A stretch of DNA of 36,573 nucleotides from a virus. The notes below the pieces were generated by a model. The model did no database searches, was not told the DNA's origin, and worked only from the letters and a program-made list of their open reading frames with translations. The position numbers were made by a program, and so were the translations under genes. The stretch lies in the IMG/VR virus record IMGVR_UViG_3300035224_000249, positions 1-36,573 of that record. The stretch is one strand, 5' to 3'. Shown here piece by piece: positions 2,968-24,083 of the stretch. How positions within the stretch are numbered: the stretch's first letter is position 1; each line of letters opens with the position of its first letter.

Positions 2968-5900
2968 ATGTTTGTGATGCCACGGCGGTTATAATGTCCC
3001 TCCCAGCTATAAGAAGTAATGCTTGCTGGTAAGGGATCAGGTGCTGTAATAATGACCTTTGCTAGATCACCTCTACAATAAATTGGTAATGCTTTAGTTG
3101 TTACCTCTTGCAGTGCTGCTTCATTAGCAAGGTAGACATCAGCAGGAGTTACATCCAAATCAATATTTACATCAAGGTATCCTTGACGTTTAAGAGTAAC
3201 AGAGTATCGACCTGAATAGTAAAGGTCAATATAAGCATTCTCAACCATAGGAAGATTTCTTCGATCTGATTTTTTTTCCTGCCTAATAAAGAACGCTGGT
3301 AGCTCTACACTCATTATGTAGCGAGTGCCAACAATATACTCTTCAGACGCAATACCTGCATCAACTTCAATATAGTAACCAGTAGTGTCTTGTAGGACTT
3401 GTGGAGTCTGAAATAAAGTTGCTGTACCATCAACAGTGAGGATAATATCGATAACTGTATCTGGTGTATCAGCATCTGTTACTTGGTAACTACCGGCAGG
3501 TAGCCTGATACGAGTGGTTGTGTCGTCTACCACCTCAGAAGTTGTCTGTGACTTGAGTAAATAAAAATCAAGCCTAGGTGTAAACTTACCACCAAAGGCA
3601 TTAATCGGACTTGTCTCTGGATCATCCAACATCTCCATCCTACTTAAAGTATGGGAGCCATCATTAAAGGTGACAAAGTACCCTGTATCATGATCAAACT
3701 CAGCTAGCTTCACATCAGCAGAAAAGATCCACTTGCACCATCCAGCCACACTACGCTTATTACCTTCATTGAAAAACTTAAACAAGTATAGAGTGTTATC
3801 GCCAGTGCCAAATAAACAGAGACTGTTGTTAGCACTAGCTGAGGAGATGAGAAGATTAGGTGGTATGTACTCTGGGACAATCCTAGTATTTTCAGATACT
3901 ATAGGTCTATCCTCTAGGGCCTCTAGGGCCATTTCAAAGACCTTTGTGAAGGTATCTGCCTCGGTGGCAAATAGAACCGACACACCCGTTTCTAGAGGCA
4001 GTACATTAGAGTTATAACTATAATTAGAAATATTAGTAAGCTTAACCGTAGCAGGTCCAAAAGCAACATCAGAAGTACCTAATAAGAACTGATCATTCTC
4101 AGCAAAGAGAAGAAGTCCTTGAGGTGTACCTAGTGCTGCTTTTAAGTTAGCTGGTTTGGTTGAGCTAGCGGTCATGTCAATTGGGTCAGCATCGCTAACA
4201 GCAATAGCAGAGCCCACAAAATAATTGAAATAGTCACCAGGCTGGCTAAGAATAACTGAGTCTTGAGCTAATAAACCAAGACGATTAGAGAAGAAGAACA
4301 TCCCTGAGATGGCGCGTCCAACAAATGTTGGGGCTGGGTTTGTATCTTCATCACCAACTTCTCTTGGTGCATAGCTTAAAAACTCATCAAACTCAAGACT
4401 TAATGGTCTAAGAATAAAAGTTCCATCTGATTGCCTAATTAAGGCATGTGGCATTGTTGATGGGTTTAAGTTGGTTGGTATACCTGGCTTAACTGTTTCT
4501 TCCCATGAGCCTTGACCAGGGATATCACCAGAAGCAGGAACAAACCTGACATAATAATCATCAGCTGATGAGTCAATAGTGTTGCGTACCTTAAGAACAA
4601 CCCCTTCTATACATTGATCAGGGAGTGATGAAATATCGTTAACAGAGCCCTTAACACCGGTCATAGCATTATCTGCTGTACCACCTCTAGTTTGAATGTT
4701 AAATTCTCTCCCATCATCTCTCTCAATGTGGATGGTACTACCAATAGGGGTAGCTGTATAAGCTGAAAGTGCATTAATGCTAGTTACTAACCCTCCTGTA
4801 ATCGTACCAATATCAAGAGCACCTGCGGTGGTGTCAGCAGCAGTAGTAAAGGAAACGCTTGCTTCGGATGCATAAGCAAACCCAAATGTCTCGTCAGTTA
4901 CAGTTATAGTATAAGACTTACCATTTAGAGAGACACTAACTGAATCGCCTATACGCCAATTAGCGCCACCATTGTTAAGAGTTACCCTAGCATTGTAAAC
5001 TGATTTATAACTATAGTCTGGCGTTGATGCTCCTTGACTAACATTGGTTACAAGAACAGTTGCAATAGCGCCACCACCATTAACTTGTCCGCCCTGTCCA
5101 ACAGCCCAAGGGCTTGTAGCTGGTTTAGCGGTATAACTTTTAATCTCTACACTGGTAACATCATATCTATTCCCCGAAAGTGCGGCATCAAATTTTTTAC
5201 TTACACGGCCATTAATCCTAACCTGTAAACTACCATTAGCAGTAGGTTGATCAACATAGACATAAGAGCCAACACCTTTAGTATCAGCACTACCTAAAAA
5301 TGAAGTAAAAAATGTCTGTGGCTGAGGAATTGAAACACTAGCAGCAGTAGGATACTTAGCACCCTTAACTTGCTCAACAACTTGAGTAGGATTACAATTA
5401 ACTTCTAACCTAAATCCTAATCCAGTTTTATTTCCAGAGCCATTTTCTACAAAGCTTTGAGCACCTGCAAAGCTGCAAGATGAATCTACAGCACCCTCAG
5501 CATCTTCAAATGAACCCGGAGATACGCTAATGGATTTAGCTTTGAAAACTTTTTCTTGAACAAGCTGATCACCATCTTTGAGAAAGTCAATGGTGTATGT
5601 AGTATTATAAGCAATCTGATTGATATTAACAAGAGCTTCTTGTTTAGCAGGGTCAGAAGTTGCAGTATCCATTGAGACTATCTTCTCTTCATTTGATATG
5701 AGAGTGTAATCAGCAATGGTTAGTGTCTTGATACTACTAAGATCATTACAAGCCAAGTAAACCCTTGAGTCACCTTCATAACTAACAGTTCTTTCAACAC
5801 CAGAGTCTGCTTCAAATGCTCTAATAGTAAACCCATTTACAGAATCATTGTAGGTAGCAATAACATAACGCTCCTGAGAATCCCTAAAGATGTTGAACCA

Positions 5901-7759: not shown

Positions 7760-7995
7760 GATTAATAATTAAAATTGAGTTTATACAGTTGCGAATCGAT
7801 TCTAATTTTGATTGTTTAAAGGGCCACAATCAAGGCGCTAGCACCTTAAGAGTTATCCGTCGCAACGGGCTCAAAAGGCAAACACCAGGGAAGGGAGTCG
7901 AACCCCTCCTACACCATCTGGCTGACATCGAGGCTTTTCCGGTCCTCGATTCCGTAACCGTCCTTGGGAGTTTACAAGGAAAAGTATGTATAAGC
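7760..7995 (-). other. Structured non-coding leader upstream of the capsid gene
   Basis: This stretch has no credible gene on either strand. On the minus strand it holds a stem TCGAGG/CCTCGA near 7930-7951, a tRNA T-arm-like element near 7890-7910 (GGGGTTCGACTCCC), a short hairpin AAGGTG-CTAG-CGCCTT (7833-7848), a perfect 8-bp stem at 7808-7833, and an A/T-rich end leading to the capsid ATG. I could not fold a complete cloverleaf. It could carry a late promoter and an RNase III-type processing site, as the gene 9-10 region of T7 does, or a decayed tRNA. Confidence 0.5.
7808..7833 (-). promoter_or_regulatory. 8-bp stem-loop in the capsid leader
   Basis: TTGATTGT and ACAATCAA are perfectly complementary across a 10-base loop, 49 bases upstream of the capsid start codon. 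No U-tract follows, so it is not a simple terminator. An RNA processing or stability hairpin is the likeliest role; this is inference from position. Confidence 0.4.
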
Positions 7996-8097: not shown

Positions 8098-8174
8098 TGG
8101 AATCTCCATAGGCTCAGGCCCCGTTCCATGCACTGAGTAGATGCGTCCCTTATGGGATGAACGAACTATGGAGA

Positions 8175-14175: not shown

Positions 14176-14308
14176 CGGTGGGGTTGTGGAACTCGCGGTT
14201 GATTTTGTCGAACAAGTCTTCTTCAAACTTTCCCCATAGCTTCACGCCATGTGGAATCTCTGTGTACCTGTAAGCAGCTTTAGCTAGCAATCCATTACGG
14301 ATATACAT
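14162..14308 (-). CDS. Small protein, 48 residues
   Basis: ATG at 14308 gives MYIRNGLLAKAAYRYTEIPH and ends in HNPTDDKD. The gene bridges the NblA-like and DUF3310-like genes with 14-base overlaps on each side, the same overlap style as its neighbours. The middle (VKLWGKFEEDLFDKINREF) is a likely amphipathic helix. I do not recognise the family and no function can be proposed beyond membership in the replication and metabolism operon. Confidence 0.6.
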   Translation of the reverse strand: MYIRNGLLAKAAYRYTEIPHGVKLWGKFEEDLFDKINREFHNPTDDKD

Positions 14309-14525
14309 CAGCTCCTGCAGAGTCAGATTCAAACTCATCTTCGTTCCAGTGGTGAATTAGGTTAGAGATAGTATTCTTAAGTACAAAGTTATGACGAATT
14401 AAAGCAGAGACACACTCAAGAATGGCATCTCTATCCGCTTCTTTTATGTTATTCTCTAGCTTTCTCATCTCAAACTGCTGTTCGTAGGTGAGTTCAAACA
14501 CTATCGGTGGTAGGGGTTTGTTCAT
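14295..14525 (-). CDS. nblA: NblA-like phycobilisome degradation protein
   Basis: A 76-residue protein with the pattern of NblA: ELTYEQQFEMRKLENNIKEA (compare the family's LSLEQxF+LR..xxQI..), then RDAILECVSALIRHNFVLKN, ending in ISNLIHHW. The spacing of two helices joined at DRDAI, the LxxEQQF motif and the LI+HNFVLKNxxxNLIxxW second helix match. NblA binds phycobiliproteins and the Clp protease to trigger antenna breakdown during nutrient stress. NblA genes are known from freshwater cyanophages and from some marine phages. It overlaps the exonuclease gene by 32 bases. The C-terminal acidic tail (NEDEFESDSAGAD) is longer than in typical NblA. Identity is by pattern only. Confidence 0.62.
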   Translation of the reverse strand: MNKPLPPIVFELTYEQQFEMRKLENNIKEADRDAILECVSALIRHNFVLKNTISNLIHHWNEDEFESDSAGADVYP

Positions 14526-19726: not shown

Positions 19727-20299
19727 TTAGAAGTCGTATTCTCCAGCGCCGGAGGATACTTTCTCTTCCCTGCGAACCTGTGGTTCATTGACTTTGAAGC
19801 CGTCTTTCTTGCCCAATAGAGCAGCAAGATCACCAGCATCCAATGAGCCACTGTCCACAGCACCGTTACCGGAGACCAGCTTTAATAGCTGACCACCTAA
19901 AACCTTGATGGTTGTACCCATTGCAGGCTTGGTGTAGGGGGTTTGCTGGCAGACCAGCTCAACCTCGGTCCCTTCCCGTGCTGTCTTAATGACATCGAGA
20001 GGCACTGGCTCCCCTGCTGAATCGATGAAAAGAGGACGAGGACGACCCGTCTCACCTTCAAACGAATATTTCACGAGGCCAGCGTCATCCCATTTCTCAG
20101 GGTTCAACGCAATTCGTTTGGGGTTATCAACTTTGGAGCGTGCCCAGACGAGTAATTCTTCTCGATCTTCGATGGCTTGCTCCAATACTTCTGGTGTAAG
20201 TCGGAATGAAAAGCAACAGTTGTTGTACTTACCGCTGGGTTCGCCAAGGTTAATAAAGCCCTCAAGTGTGGTGGTGAAGATGTAACGGTTGTTAGCCAT
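19727..20299 (-). CDS. Single-stranded DNA-binding protein (gp2.5-like)
   Basis: A 190-residue protein, slightly shorter than T7 gp2.5 (232). It opens with an OB-fold-like strand set (RYIFTTTLEGFINLGEPSGK, then CCFSFRLTPE), has a central VKYSFEGETGRPRPLFIDS segment, and a linker at 145-180. The C-terminus ends GAGEYDF, the acidic aromatic tail by which T7 gp2.5 contacts the polymerase and helicase. The ATG is preceded by an ACACCACACCACACACC leader. It heads the replication block after the int terminator. Confidence 0.85.
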   Translation of the reverse strand: MANNRYIFTTTLEGFINLGEPSGKYNNCCFSFRLTPEVLEQAIEDREELLVWARSKVDNPKRIALNPEKWDDAGLVKYSFEGETGRPRPLFIDSAGEPVPLDVIKTAREGTEVELVCQQTPYTKPAMGTTIKVLGGQLLKLVSGNGAVDSGSLDAGDLAALLGKKDGFKVNEPQVRREEKVSSGAGEYDF

Positions 20300-20316
20300 G
20301 GTGTGTGGTGTGGTGT

Positions 20317-20463
20317 TTAAAGATCGAACATGAGATAGGACTTTAAATATTCCTCATACTCATCATTCGTTGTGGATTCGCATATGTATGGGTTACCATA
20401 TGCAAGGAAACAAGTGAACTCTTCAAGCGAAAGTTGCTCTATTTCACGTTGAGTTAATTCCAT
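20317..20463 (-). CDS. Small protein, 48 residues, between attP and SSB
   Basis: ATG at 20463 gives MELTQREIEQLSLEEFTCFL and ends YLKSYLMFDL. It is acidic and helical. It is the first gene after the terminator and candidate attP, 17 bases before the SSB gene, with an AACACACC element 10 bases upstream of the ATG. No family recognised. Its position at the head of the replication block makes a regulatory role possible, but nothing in the sequence shows that. Confidence 0.6.
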   Translation of the reverse strand: MELTQREIEQLSLEEFTCFLAYGNPYICESTTNDEYEEYLKSYLMFDL

Positions 20464-20511
20464 TAGTTCGGTGTGTTACGCACTTGTGTGTACTTTTGCT
20501 GTGATGCCAAT

Positions 20512-20535
20512 AAAAAACCGGGTTGTTAAACCCGG
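20512..20535 (-). terminator. Strong rho-independent terminator after int
   Basis: On the minus strand CCGGGTT-TAAC-AACCCGG is a perfect 7-bp stem with a 4-base loop followed by six T. It lies 144 bases beyond the integrase stop and just past the candidate attP. It should separate the RNA polymerase-integrase unit from the replication block, so SSB and later genes need their own promoter or antitermination. Confidence 0.85.
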
Positions 20536-20549
20536 CGGTGTGTATCTTT

Positions 20550-20595
20550 CATCAGTACCTAAAACCAGCGCGTCTGCCAATTCCGCCAGATGGGC
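20550..20595 (-). other. attP: Candidate attP: 5' part of a tRNA-Leu gene
   Basis: On the minus strand the stretch reads as the first half of a tRNA-Leu: acceptor-like start, D-arm (GGCGGAATTGGCAGACGCGC) and anticodon region TGGTTTTAGGTAC with a TAG anticodon in the loop, then homology to a tRNA stops. It begins 84 bases downstream of int. P-SSP7 likewise carries a 42-base host tRNA-Leu match directly downstream of int, proposed as attP. No T-arm or 3' half is present, so it is not a functional tRNA. Confidence 0.7.
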
Positions 20596-20678
20596 ACAGG
20601 GATGTCAGCTTATTTTAGTTGACACTTGGAAGAGTTTATCACTCCAAAAGGACCTAAATCAGTAACCGCTAGTCACGG

Positions 20679-21524
20679 TTAGAGACGGCCTATTGCCTCA
20701 TCACAAGCCGATTGAGTGGGCTTGATGTAGCGAAGGCTGACCTCCACCGATGAATGCCCCATTACTTCCATGATCTGGCGGGGTGCTGCATGTTCACCGA
20801 GCCACGTCCCGAAGGAGTGCCTCAGTGTATGCCAGCAATGATCCTCAGGGATGCCTAAGTGATCGCGCACCTTTTTGAAGGCGTAGTAAAGCCTGTCCTT
20901 GGTTTCAAAATCATCTCTGAATAGATAATCATTTGAAGCACGGCGCTGTGCGATCTCCTTAATGCGATCAGCGAGCAGGATTGCCCGAACATCGCGTGGT
21001 TTTGTGACTTGCTCTGGCTTACCACCAATCCATAAACGATTGTTGATTAGATCCAAATCACGCCCCCTGAGTTTCATCAGTTCCCCCTGCCGACATCCCG
21101 TATAGGCACTCCATAGGATTGCCTCTGCTAGATCAATGCGATCAAACACATGAACAGCGGCATAAGCCATGTCCTCTACTTGATCCTTAGTAAACCAAGT
21201 AAGACGGTGCTTACCTTCCTTAAGACGCTTAAAAGGAGGGCAGGGAGTGCCATGTAAGCCAGCTAGGTAACTCTCCTTTAGGACATGTGTCCCGTTGGAG
21301 CAGATCCTGTTGACCGTACTGGTGCTCTTGCCTTCATCTTGTAGCTCCTCTTGGAGGTTCATCCAGAAGCCAGTCTTCCCCATCTTGGTGAGGGGATAAC
21401 TCCTCCCAACATGACGTGAAATGTGGTTGCTGTTGATGATTGCTGTCTTGGCGGAACGGGTGCGCTTCCAGCGTTTCATCTGGAAGTCCAGGGCTTCACC
21501 CCAGGTCTTGACGGTGGTTTTCAC
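20679..21524 (-). CDS. int: Tyrosine recombinase (integrase)
   Basis: A 281-residue site-specific recombinase. The catalytic set is visible: R145 in YTGCRQGELMKLRG, H232 and R235 in WHTLRHSFGTWLGEH, H257 in VMGHSSVEVSLRYIKPT, and nucleophile Y266 in the same segment. The N-terminal part (residues 1-90) is a core-binding domain. It starts with GTG at 21524, preceded by ATACACACC. Cyanopodoviruses such as P-SSP7 carry integrase genes although lysogeny is rarely observed. The tRNA-Leu fragment directly downstream is the candidate attachment site. Confidence 0.93.
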   Translation of the reverse strand: MKTTVKTWGEALDFQMKRWKRTRSAKTAIINSNHISRHVGRSYPLTKMGKTGFWMNLQEELQDEGKSTSTVNRICSNGTHVLKESYLAGLHGTPCPPFKRLKEGKHRLTWFTKDQVEDMAYAAVHVFDRIDLAEAILWSAYTGCRQGELMKLRGRDLDLINNRLWIGGKPEQVTKPRDVRAILLADRIKEIAQRRASNDYLFRDDFETKDRLYYAFKKVRDHLGIPEDHCWHTLRHSFGTWLGEHAAPRQIMEVMGHSSVEVSLRYIKPTQSACDEAIGRL

Positions 21525-21749: not shown

Positions 21750-24083
21750 TCAACAAAAGAAATACTTTGAATCGTTTACTTGGGTTATATCAAGTGTATT
21801 TTTCACAAGACCCTCAGGAATAGTTACCCCTACCTGATCAGCCCAGTTTTGTAACACTGGCTCCTTATACATCTCAACAAAGTGATGCCTAATTTCAATC
21901 GACATCTGATCAAGATCACAACTCCTACCTAGAATGCAATCATGGATTACGGAAAAAGGCTGATCCCAATGAGCAAAGGTCAAGTGGATCAAGGCAGCAT
22001 CATGGCTGTGAGTAACGTTGGGAGCTAGAGCATTACGGTGATGAGGTACATCTGGCTCGGCATAACCACTAGCAACAACACTTTGAACAGCTGACCCAAG
22101 TAACCTCGTTTTAATGAGGTGACCCTTTGGCTTTCGCAAGTCTTGACAAACAACAAAGCCACTAGGTGAGACCCATTGGATTTGACTTTGTCGCTGCATG
22201 ATTTCGCTAGCGCATTGCTGTAGCCACTCCATAGCTTTAACAGGACCAGGAAAGATCTCAGGGATAGATTCCTCAAAGACAACATTCACAATGTTTGAAA
22301 GAACACCAGGCTCCTTCAGGTCTCGATTATCTGCTTTTAGGGCTTCTCTGATGTAGTCACGGGCCGAATGCTTACGGATTCCGTAGGGGGTACACATACA
22401 GACCCTCTTTGTAACCTTTCGGTTCATCCAGGTATTCAATGGAGCAGGTAATCTCTTAGCTGCATGTTCTGCAACTGTTCGATAACCATCCTGTGGTTGA
22501 TCATTAGGAATCAAATTAACCAGCTCACCGCTGGATTTGTCCATACACATGGCGGAGAGATGCTGGATCCCACTTTGGGTTGCATCTATGCCCACGGGCA
22601 GGCCACTGGTCTTCTTATCACCAAGGACACAATCAACCCATTCACAACAAGCGGCCATAAATGCCCATGGTTCAGACACCTCCTCCCATAAAGGGATAGT
22701 GCCGATGGGATCTGTTCCTACTTGCTTGATTAGGTCTTGGTTGTCATAGGTCCATTGGATGCGAGCTTCCATTGATAACTTGTCGTTACCAAACGTATTG
22801 CTACAAGCAAAGGCAATCCAGTACTCATTGACTGGACCCTCCTCTGCAAAATAGAAAAGACTCTTGTGATGATCTGTCCCCTGTGGGTTTAGACCAGTCA
22901 CTAAGGGATAAAGCCTCCCCCTATACCCGAAGCTCCAGGGAACCCAAAAGATCTCACCCTCATACATCCTGGCGATATACATCGTTTCTGATGTAAGCCA
23001 GTTGTTCTGGGAGATTTGGGCGTTGTCGTCATGGATCTGGCGGCTTTTACGCTTCCAGACCTTCAGCTCCTCTTCAGTCGGTTCTCCGTCCAAAGGTTCG
23101 GGAGGCTGTTGCCATGCCTGACACCTGAATTTGCCGATGGTGATTCGCTGCTCATAACAGTGCTCACTAACAGCAAAGACACGAGGGTTGATCTTCCAAG
23201 CGACAGACTGAGCATTGTTCAGCATGTCGATGGGGACCTGTCCCTGCTGTACATCACCCGATAGCCCACTCTTACGCACAAGTGAGTACATCTCTCGATA
23301 AGAGCTGGTTAAATAGCCGCCACGCTGATCATTAGCCCAGGCCACAGGAGGGCACAACATAGGCCATTGACAGAAGCTCATAGCCTCAGCCTGATGGATG
23401 ATCGTGTCCCGCATTTCTAAATACGCAGGTGCATATCTCATTACTGTATGGCTCCGCTTACCACGGGTAATAGATACTTTATGCACCCATCCCGTAACAG
23501 TGATGATGCAATCAAGAATCCAGGCCCCAACCTTATGCTTGGTGAGAGAGTCCCACTCACTAAATTGTGGAACCGAGCAGGCTTCACTGTTAAATGACCT
23601 TTTGATTACTGTCAACTTTTGCCTTGTACCCGTGGCCTTGTGAAACCATTGAGAAGCTTTCTCATAAAGCTCGGGATCTTCCTTGTGGTAATAGTCAAGC
23701 CTCATCTGTGCGCAGATAGCAGCACCTATCGGAACGCATAACTCTTGGAAGCCTGGATCCTTTGTCTTACCAAGCACATCTAGTGCTTTCTTAAGACCAA
23801 TAAGCCCAAGAGTCCGTTCATCTGATGCATCCTTTAGATGCCTGAATACTGTTGCAGCATCAACTGAAGCTTTACCACGTCTTAGCACAAACAAACGCTT
23901 TGTGATCAAGTCGTTGATCAAGGGTAAGTATGTTCTGATTGCTGATTGACCAACAACACTACTTGATCCGTAGGCCCTTTCGTTAGCCACGCGGGTTCGA
24001 TTAGTAAGCATTTGGATGGCTGTATCCTTAGCTTGGATCTCTCGCTGGAGCTGCCTTGCGAGGTTATCAAGTGGTGCTTGCAT
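21750..24083 (-). CDS. Single-subunit DNA-directed RNA polymerase (gp1-like)
   Basis: A 777-residue polymerase of the T7 family. The catalytic Asp of motif A is D500 in LPVGIDATQSGIQHLSAM. Motif B has K559 R560 and Y567 in RKVTKRVCMCTPYGIRKHS. Motif C has D715 in VIHDCILGR. GYRGRLYP at about 386-394 matches the GR motif before motif A. T7 gp1 is 883 residues, and the shortening is largely in the N-terminal domain, as in cyanophage enzymes. It would transcribe the middle and late blocks. The ATG lies 19 bases past the T-tract of a terminator-like hairpin and no Shine-Dalgarno sequence is visible. Confidence 0.95.
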   Translation of the reverse strand: MQAPLDNLARQLQREIQAKDTAIQMLTNRTRVANERAYGSSSVVGQSAIRTYLPLINDLITKRLFVLRRGKASVDAATVFRHLKDASDERTLGLIGLKKALDVLGKTKDPGFQELCVPIGAAICAQMRLDYYHKEDPELYEKASQWFHKATGTRQKLTVIKRSFNSEACSVPQFSEWDSLTKHKVGAWILDCIITVTGWVHKVSITRGKRSHTVMRYAPAYLEMRDTIIHQAEAMSFCQWPMLCPPVAWANDQRGGYLTSSYREMYSLVRKSGLSGDVQQGQVPIDMLNNAQSVAWKINPRVFAVSEHCYEQRITIGKFRCQAWQQPPEPLDGEPTEEELKVWKRKSRQIHDDNAQISQNNWLTSETMYIARMYEGEIFWVPWSFGYRGRLYPLVTGLNPQGTDHHKSLFYFAEEGPVNEYWIAFACSNTFGNDKLSMEARIQWTYDNQDLIKQVGTDPIGTIPLWEEVSEPWAFMAACCEWVDCVLGDKKTSGLPVGIDATQSGIQHLSAMCMDKSSGELVNLIPNDQPQDGYRTVAEHAAKRLPAPLNTWMNRKVTKRVCMCTPYGIRKHSARDYIREALKADNRDLKEPGVLSNIVNVVFEESIPEIFPGPVKAMEWLQQCASEIMQRQSQIQWVSPSGFVVCQDLRKPKGHLIKTRLLGSAVQSVVASGYAEPDVPHHRNALAPNVTHSHDAALIHLTFAHWDQPFSVIHDCILGRSCDLDQMSIEIRHHFVEMYKEPVLQNWADQVGVTIPEGLVKNTLDITQVNDSKYFFC

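Follow-up and report, generated by a model that had tools for sequence, protein, structure and literature searches.

Integration into leucine tRNA genes has been described for T7-like cyanophages. According to the accessible passages of Shitrit et al. 2021 (PMC8776855), experiments demonstrated it in S-TIP37 and P-SSP7, and in the case of S-TIP37 both int and attP were required. Integration in relatives was rare, and stable lysogens were not obtained (PMC8776855). Four 39-nt motifs were named for the attPs of T7-like cyanophages in the same source, presumably those with the anticodons TAA and CAG and two with CAA, one of SS120-1 and one of S-CBP3. Mizuno et al. 2013 had used tRNA-Leu fragments to link int-bearing contigs to hosts (PMC3861242). 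As far as the accessible text of a further source goes, bacterial tRNA genes rebuilt by integration keep their original promoter with very few exceptions (PMC8371274). In archaeal pTN3-like elements, which hold the 5' half of the gene, the rebuilt tRNA is expressed from the integrase promoter, an arrangement seldom seen in bacteria (PMC8371274).

The DNA analysed here, referred to as the window, covers all 36,573 bases of the viral IMG/VR record IMGVR_UViG_3300035224_000249. Downstream of its integrase gene lies a segment with the same layout as the tRNA-Leu attPs of P-SSP7 and S-TIP37. Since integration was shown for these two T7-like cyanophages, the segment is very probably the attP of the phage. 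The half tRNA gene has the anticodon TAA in P-SSP7 and P-SSP3 and CAG in S-TIP37, whereas in the window it has TAG together with another acceptor strand (GCCCATC). The parallel to the attP of P-SSP7 drawn in the initial annotation thus stands for the 5' half following int in both phages, but not for the anticodon. As in the pTN3-like elements, the element holds the 5' half and the rebuilt tRNA would lose its own promoter; unlike these elements, which use the integrase promoter, the window has a separate promoter-like site between int and the half tRNA (compare PMC8371274). A tyrosine integrase acting at a tRNA gene is also found in the tRNA-dependent lysogeny of mycobacteriophages, but in the part of the source available these carry either a core made of the 3' half or an additional complete tRNA, while the window has the 5' half and lacks a tRNA gene (PMC10865867).

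The phage and its integrase

PHROG profiles detected an RNA polymerase, a primase-helicase, a DNA polymerase, an exonuclease, an endonuclease and a ribonucleotide reductase in the window, together with a terminase, a head-tail adaptor, a major head protein and tail proteins. The best DNA matches of the window were the T7-like cyanophages S-TIP28, P60, Syn5 and SS120-1, and its terminase showed 73-75% identity to cyanophage genes. When loci close to the window were searched, int retrieved none and the RNA polymerase only one, at 51%; the lineage therefore stands alone. Judged by its gene content, the window is a divergent, uncultured T7-like (Autographiviridae-type) cyanophage with an nblA gene. 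The NblA-like protein (Table 1) speaks for a cyanobacterial host with phycobilisomes; psbA was searched in the window and not found. Host DNA at att junctions, as expected of a prophage, is absent from the record, phage genes flank the half tRNA on both sides, and integration junctions were not seen.

Table 1. Features of the window relevant to the predicted attachment site and to the phage type
Feature	Position	Strand	Evidence or remark
NblA-like phycobilisome degradation protein	14295..14525	-	Pfam PF04485, E 6.2e-07, 30.2 bits (cut-off 25)
ssDNA-binding protein gene (gp2.5-like)	19727..20299	-	PHROG 112, E 7.9e-08; next listed gene downstream of the terminator
Predicted intrinsic terminator, a GC-rich hairpin followed by a T tract	20512..20536	-	Sequence; shuffle and family comparison
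Probable attP core, tRNA-Leu(UAG) nucleotide 1 to end of anticodon loop, 39 nt	20557..20595	-	Sequence; a half of this kind in 22 other viral contigs
Anticodon TAG	20559..20561	-	Within the presumed 7-nt overlap TTTAGGT (20557-20563)
Leader, from the -10 site to the half tRNA	20596..20632	-	Sequence; predicted to include the rebuilt pre-tRNA's 5' leader
Extended -10 promoter-like site, TGATAAACT	20633..20641	-	Fits TGnTAnnnT; located 37 nt upstream of nucleotide 1 of the tRNA
Tyrosine recombinase (integrase), 281 aa	20679..21524	-	Pfam PF00589, E 6e-17, residues 110-270; PHROG integrase families
T7-type RNA polymerase	21750..24083	-	PHROG 414, E 9.4e-196, Pfam RNA_pol; upstream of int; marks the phage type

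In the integrase, no Pfam domain other than the recombinase domain was detected. An alignment with five cyanophage integrases showed R145, H232, R235, H257 and Y266 to be invariant in all six proteins; these residues are presumably the catalytic ones (R, HxxR, H, Y). The protein is about 55% identical to the integrases of S-CBP42, S-TIP28 and S-CBP2 and is placed on a long end branch (0.9) in the integrase tree. Related integrases were also noticed outside cyanophages, in the Rhizobium phages RHEph01, RHEph21 and TRX32-1, where a tRNA-Leu-like stretch is located near int on the other strand.

The half tRNA-Leu and its counterparts in other phages

On the minus strand, positions 20595-20557 read GCCCATCTGGCGGAATTGGCAGACGCGCTGGTTTTAGGT. 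This stretch consists of the acceptor strand GCCCATC, T8, G9, the D arm, the anticodon stem strand CTGGT and the 7-nt loop TTTAGGT, and a spacer of 83 nt separates the int stop codon from nucleotide 1. When scored against the motif of the other viral contigs, the half reached 38 of 39, compared to 24 for the best match on either strand when the entire window was dinucleotide-shuffled 20 times. It is present as a single copy on its strand within the window. ARAGORN predicted no tRNA gene in the window, and the Rfam tRNA family gave no match in 20400-20700 up to E = 5; positions 20557-20595 are therefore half a gene. Thus, the half tRNA-Leu with TAG reported after the tyrosine recombinase in the initial annotation is real, and the intact tRNA with full cloverleaf named there as the contrary outcome was not found. 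The span given at that time, 20550-20595, holds as far as 20557; positions 20550-20556 are phage sequence except for the two bases AC directly after the half, which are perhaps shared with the host, perhaps not. Mirroring between the left and right core half-sites amounts to 3 of 11 positions in the window, with 2.7 expected by chance and a family mean of 4.5. In the flanks of the family the symmetry axis lies on average on the anticodon loop, a symmetry absent in the window.

To place the half among its relatives, int loci were gathered from viral contigs of IMG/VR (80) and from isolate records (12), giving 93 with the window. Two (L162 and L208) were dropped, having no int stop, which left 91 usable loci, 78 from IMG/VR, 12 isolates and the window; some IMG/VR loci appear to duplicate isolate records (S-CBP42, S-CBP2, S-CBP1). 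A 5' half of tRNA-Leu follows int in 74 of the 91 loci, P-SSP7 and S-TIP37 included, in most of them 81-95 nt after the int stop. The 74 attPs correspond to 61 distinct ones, and the integrase tree comprises 77 distinct proteins. CAG is by far the most frequent anticodon (57 halves), followed by TAG (11, window included), TAA (3) and CAA (3). Three loci of the CAG type (L132, L156, L157) have one extra base in the D loop. Among the isolates compared, TAA is found in P-SSP7 and P-SSP3, CAG in S-TIP37, S-TIP28, S-CBP1, S-CBP2 and S-SRP01, CAA in SS120-1 and, with differing sequence, in S-CBP3, and TAG in none. While the type of site is known, tRNA-Leu(UAG) as a target is new among the cultured relatives compared.

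A scan of viral contigs for GCCCATCTGGCGGAATTGG yielded 23 loci, of which 22 contain a UAG half; L111 was rejected as a chance match to the 19-nt pattern. The 22 halves (L109-L131 except L111) share with the window GCCCATCTGGCGGAATTGG, the anticodon TAG and a hairpin downstream. They differ at a single variable base, tRNA position 20, which is C in the window and T in 22 of 22, and the integrases of these loci are only 39-51% identical to that of the window. Nine of the 22 contigs reappear in the set of int loci. UAG 3' halves or whole tRNAs with the acceptor strand GATGGGC were not found in viral contigs, and L212, obtained with a degenerate tRNA pattern, was rejected as an attP; it is an intact tRNA-Leu(UAG) with the acceptor GCCCATA. 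On the integrase tree the TAG label (10 rows) changes five times, with all five changes forced by well-supported branches, and integrases with 81% identity aim at different tRNAs. The choice of UAG therefore arose or disappeared on several occasions. Within a clade of integrases whose other members are of the CAG and TAG types, one locus (L158) shows a UAA-type half with another acceptor (GGGGGCA) after int.

The remaining 17 int loci fall into three groups. Eight, among them S-CBP42 and Syn5, have no tRNA-Leu piece nearby. In another eight (L136-L140, L142, L164 and L165) an intact tRNA-Leu(CAG) is located just after int on the strand opposite to it. It is possibly a replacement tRNA, which looks similar to the way mycobacteriophages provide for the tRNA they hit, as described in passages of PMC10865867. 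The last one, L149, harbors a 3' half of tRNA-Leu(CAG) that begins at the anticodon loop (3465-3517, plus strand), after int and upstream of ssb. ARAGORN recognises a complete tRNA-Leu(CAG) when this half is fused at the loop to the S-TIP28 5' half, but not in either half alone; the pair therefore resembles a single target divided in the loop.

A promoter-like site and a terminator around the half tRNA

Inspection of the aligned attPs by eye drew attention to a motif, TGnTAnnnT, in the spacer, and its occurrences were subsequently tallied in the very set in which it had been spotted; control comparisons with shuffles, the reverse strand, the downstream stretch and the loci lacking a half accompanied or followed this tally. 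Upstream of the half, between -75 and -12, the motif is present in 44 of the 61 distinct attPs, while shuffles predict 2.0. It was not detected in any of the 61 on the reverse strand or in the downstream stretch, and after clustering of the upstream sequences by similarity, 17 of 29 clusters contain it. In the first 200 nt past int it is missing from all 17 loci without a 5' half, L149 included. The letters TG-n-TA-nnn-T are fixed and the inner ones mostly free, as in an extended -10 promoter; the copy of P-SSP7 reads TGTTATAAT, that of the window TGATAAACT. Only two of the nine distinct UAG-type attPs, the window and L169, have the strict motif. A conventional sigma-70 scan (-35/-10) of positions 20300-20900 revealed no promoter, and TGnTAnnnT occurs on the minus strand of the window at a density of 0.79 per kb; the window's own copy, with a chance of about 5% for the window alone, is thus weak evidence.

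Directly after the half, the window contains the hairpin GCCGGGTTTAACAACCCGGT at 20536-20517, followed by a T tract. Shuffles yield 0.7 terminator-like sites per 601 nt, so that this terminator, too, is weak evidence taken alone. Among the distinct attPs, however, a terminator was found within the next 110 nt in 47 of 60, with 0.7 expected; L193, the sixty-first, was too short to be counted. The terminator placed after the half tRNA in the initial annotation is hence borne out.

From these arrangements the following course of events appears likely as a whole. The tyrosine recombinase would pair attP with a host tRNA-Leu(UAG) gene at its identical 5' half, and strands would be exchanged inside the anticodon loop, presumably within the 7-nt overlap. 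At the junction on the int side, phage leader and phage 5' half would be joined to the host 3' half, giving an intact tRNA without its own promoter. The other junction would consist of the host promoter, the host 5' half and the phage terminator. Within the 83-nt spacer, the extended -10 site would drive the rebuilt tRNA, and the terminator would block the host tRNA promoter from entering the downstream phage genes, thereby shielding the gene for the ssDNA-binding protein. That the phage of the window integrates, and into which host, we infer from these comparisons.

The role of the extended -10 site is the less certain part of this scheme; on balance, it would serve as the promoter of the rebuilt tRNA. 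Because a 5'-half attP leaves the rebuilt tRNA behind phage DNA, a separate promoter in the spacer would meet a need, and in the literature searched, openly licensed papers only, no mention of one was found. Alternatively, with a genuine attP, transcripts of the rebuilt tRNA would come from the integrase promoter by read-through, and the -10 motif would have another role, such as an arm site of the integrase or an element of phage regulation. Transcription of int runs toward the half tRNA, no gene is listed between the two, and the archaeal pTN3-like elements are a precedent for a rebuilt tRNA expressed in this way (PMC8371274, accessible part). Against read-through, the conserved TG-n-TA-nnn-T resembles an extended -10 promoter, and the 17 int loci without a 5' half lack it, though int is present there; neither point is decisive. 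Read-through is possible, but we consider it rather unlikely.

A broader role may be tentatively considered. The attP could be a portable cassette for tRNA rescue, in which a bacterial promoter and a leader precede the tRNA-Leu 5' half and a terminator follows it. Such a cassette would rebuild a host tRNA upon integration and take over its transcription, could be re-aimed between leucine isoacceptors by a swap of the half with little change of the integrase, and would give a short tRNA-half RNA in the free phage. If true, the phage would control a host tRNA through the cassette, which might explain why int and attP are retained in lytic phages. The finding alone is modest, because this type of site is known and was proven in relatives. 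It adds a leucine isoacceptor unseen in the cultured phages compared, and switching between isoacceptors is recurrent. It also offers a testable answer to the question of which promoter transcribes a tRNA rebuilt at 5'-half sites, and it predicts an attB by which uncultured nblA-bearing T7-like cyanophages may be traced to their hosts.

Host match, remaining alternatives and other elements of the window

The predicted target is a host tRNA-Leu(UAG) gene. Genome contigs were scanned for exact copies of the 33-nt core GGCGGAATTGGCAGACGCGCTGGTTTTAGGTAC, a pattern that demanded the C of the window at tRNA position 20 and two bases past the 39-nt core. It was present in 90 contigs, none of them titled cyanobacterial, in a collection whose cyanobacterial content was uncontrolled. 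The tRNA-Leu(UAG) sequences in these contigs come from Acidimicrobiia, Blautia and relatives, Phycisphaerales and others. All of these were rejected as hosts, since their acceptor strand differs and the phage is a cyanophage. Scans of plasmids and phage records for the core gave partial matches only. The long exact match in a cyanobacterial tRNA-Leu gene that the initial annotation had anticipated was thus not obtained, but this does not refute the attP, because the pattern was exact, specific for C and extended two bases past the core.

The missing cyanobacterial match and the C at position 20, unique to the window, could also mean that the segment is a relic, a tRNA-Leu fragment of a past host that matches no current one, in an attP that does not work. 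The weak right half-site and the long end branch of the integrase would fit. On the other hand, apart from this C the half shows no defect between nucleotide 1 and the loop end and lies at the usual family distance from int, terminator and -10 site were kept, as were the invariant residues of the integrase, and other bacteria tolerate the C in their tRNA-Leu(UAG): the 90 contigs have it by design of the pattern. A relic is therefore unlikely.

Taken together, promoter-like site, half tRNA and terminator also resemble a small RNA gene. In the free phage they might specify a short RNA, estimated at about 115 nt, with a function of its own during lytic infection, perhaps that of a decoy made of half a tRNA, and phages of the family keep the unit although stable lysogens were not obtained, as stated in passages of PMC8776855. 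However, the predicted fold of the stretch does not surpass those of shuffled sequences (z -1.01), no RNA family reaches threshold, and the role as attP already accounts for the conservation, which makes such a function very unlikely. An intact or decayed tRNA gene serving phage translation, unrelated to int, may practically be dismissed; intact tRNA-Leu(UAG) with the same core occurs in the viral contigs L014-L018, but the absent 3' half refutes this reading and the fixed place after int in the family also speaks against it.

Two further RNA-like elements were noticed on the minus strand of the window apart from the segment after int. Positions 7880-7960 contain a stretch similar to a tRNA T arm, GGAGGGGTTCGACTCCCTTCC, which ARAGORN and Rfam do not recognise. 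At 8113-8166, between the scaffold and major head genes, a Glutamine-II riboswitch aptamer was detected (51.3 bits, gathering threshold 33), which may represent a nitrogen-sensing element amid phage structural genes. The aptamer is followed by a short peptide ending in KLTYRGVQYLLAK, with a sub-threshold match to DUF4278 (E 0.007).
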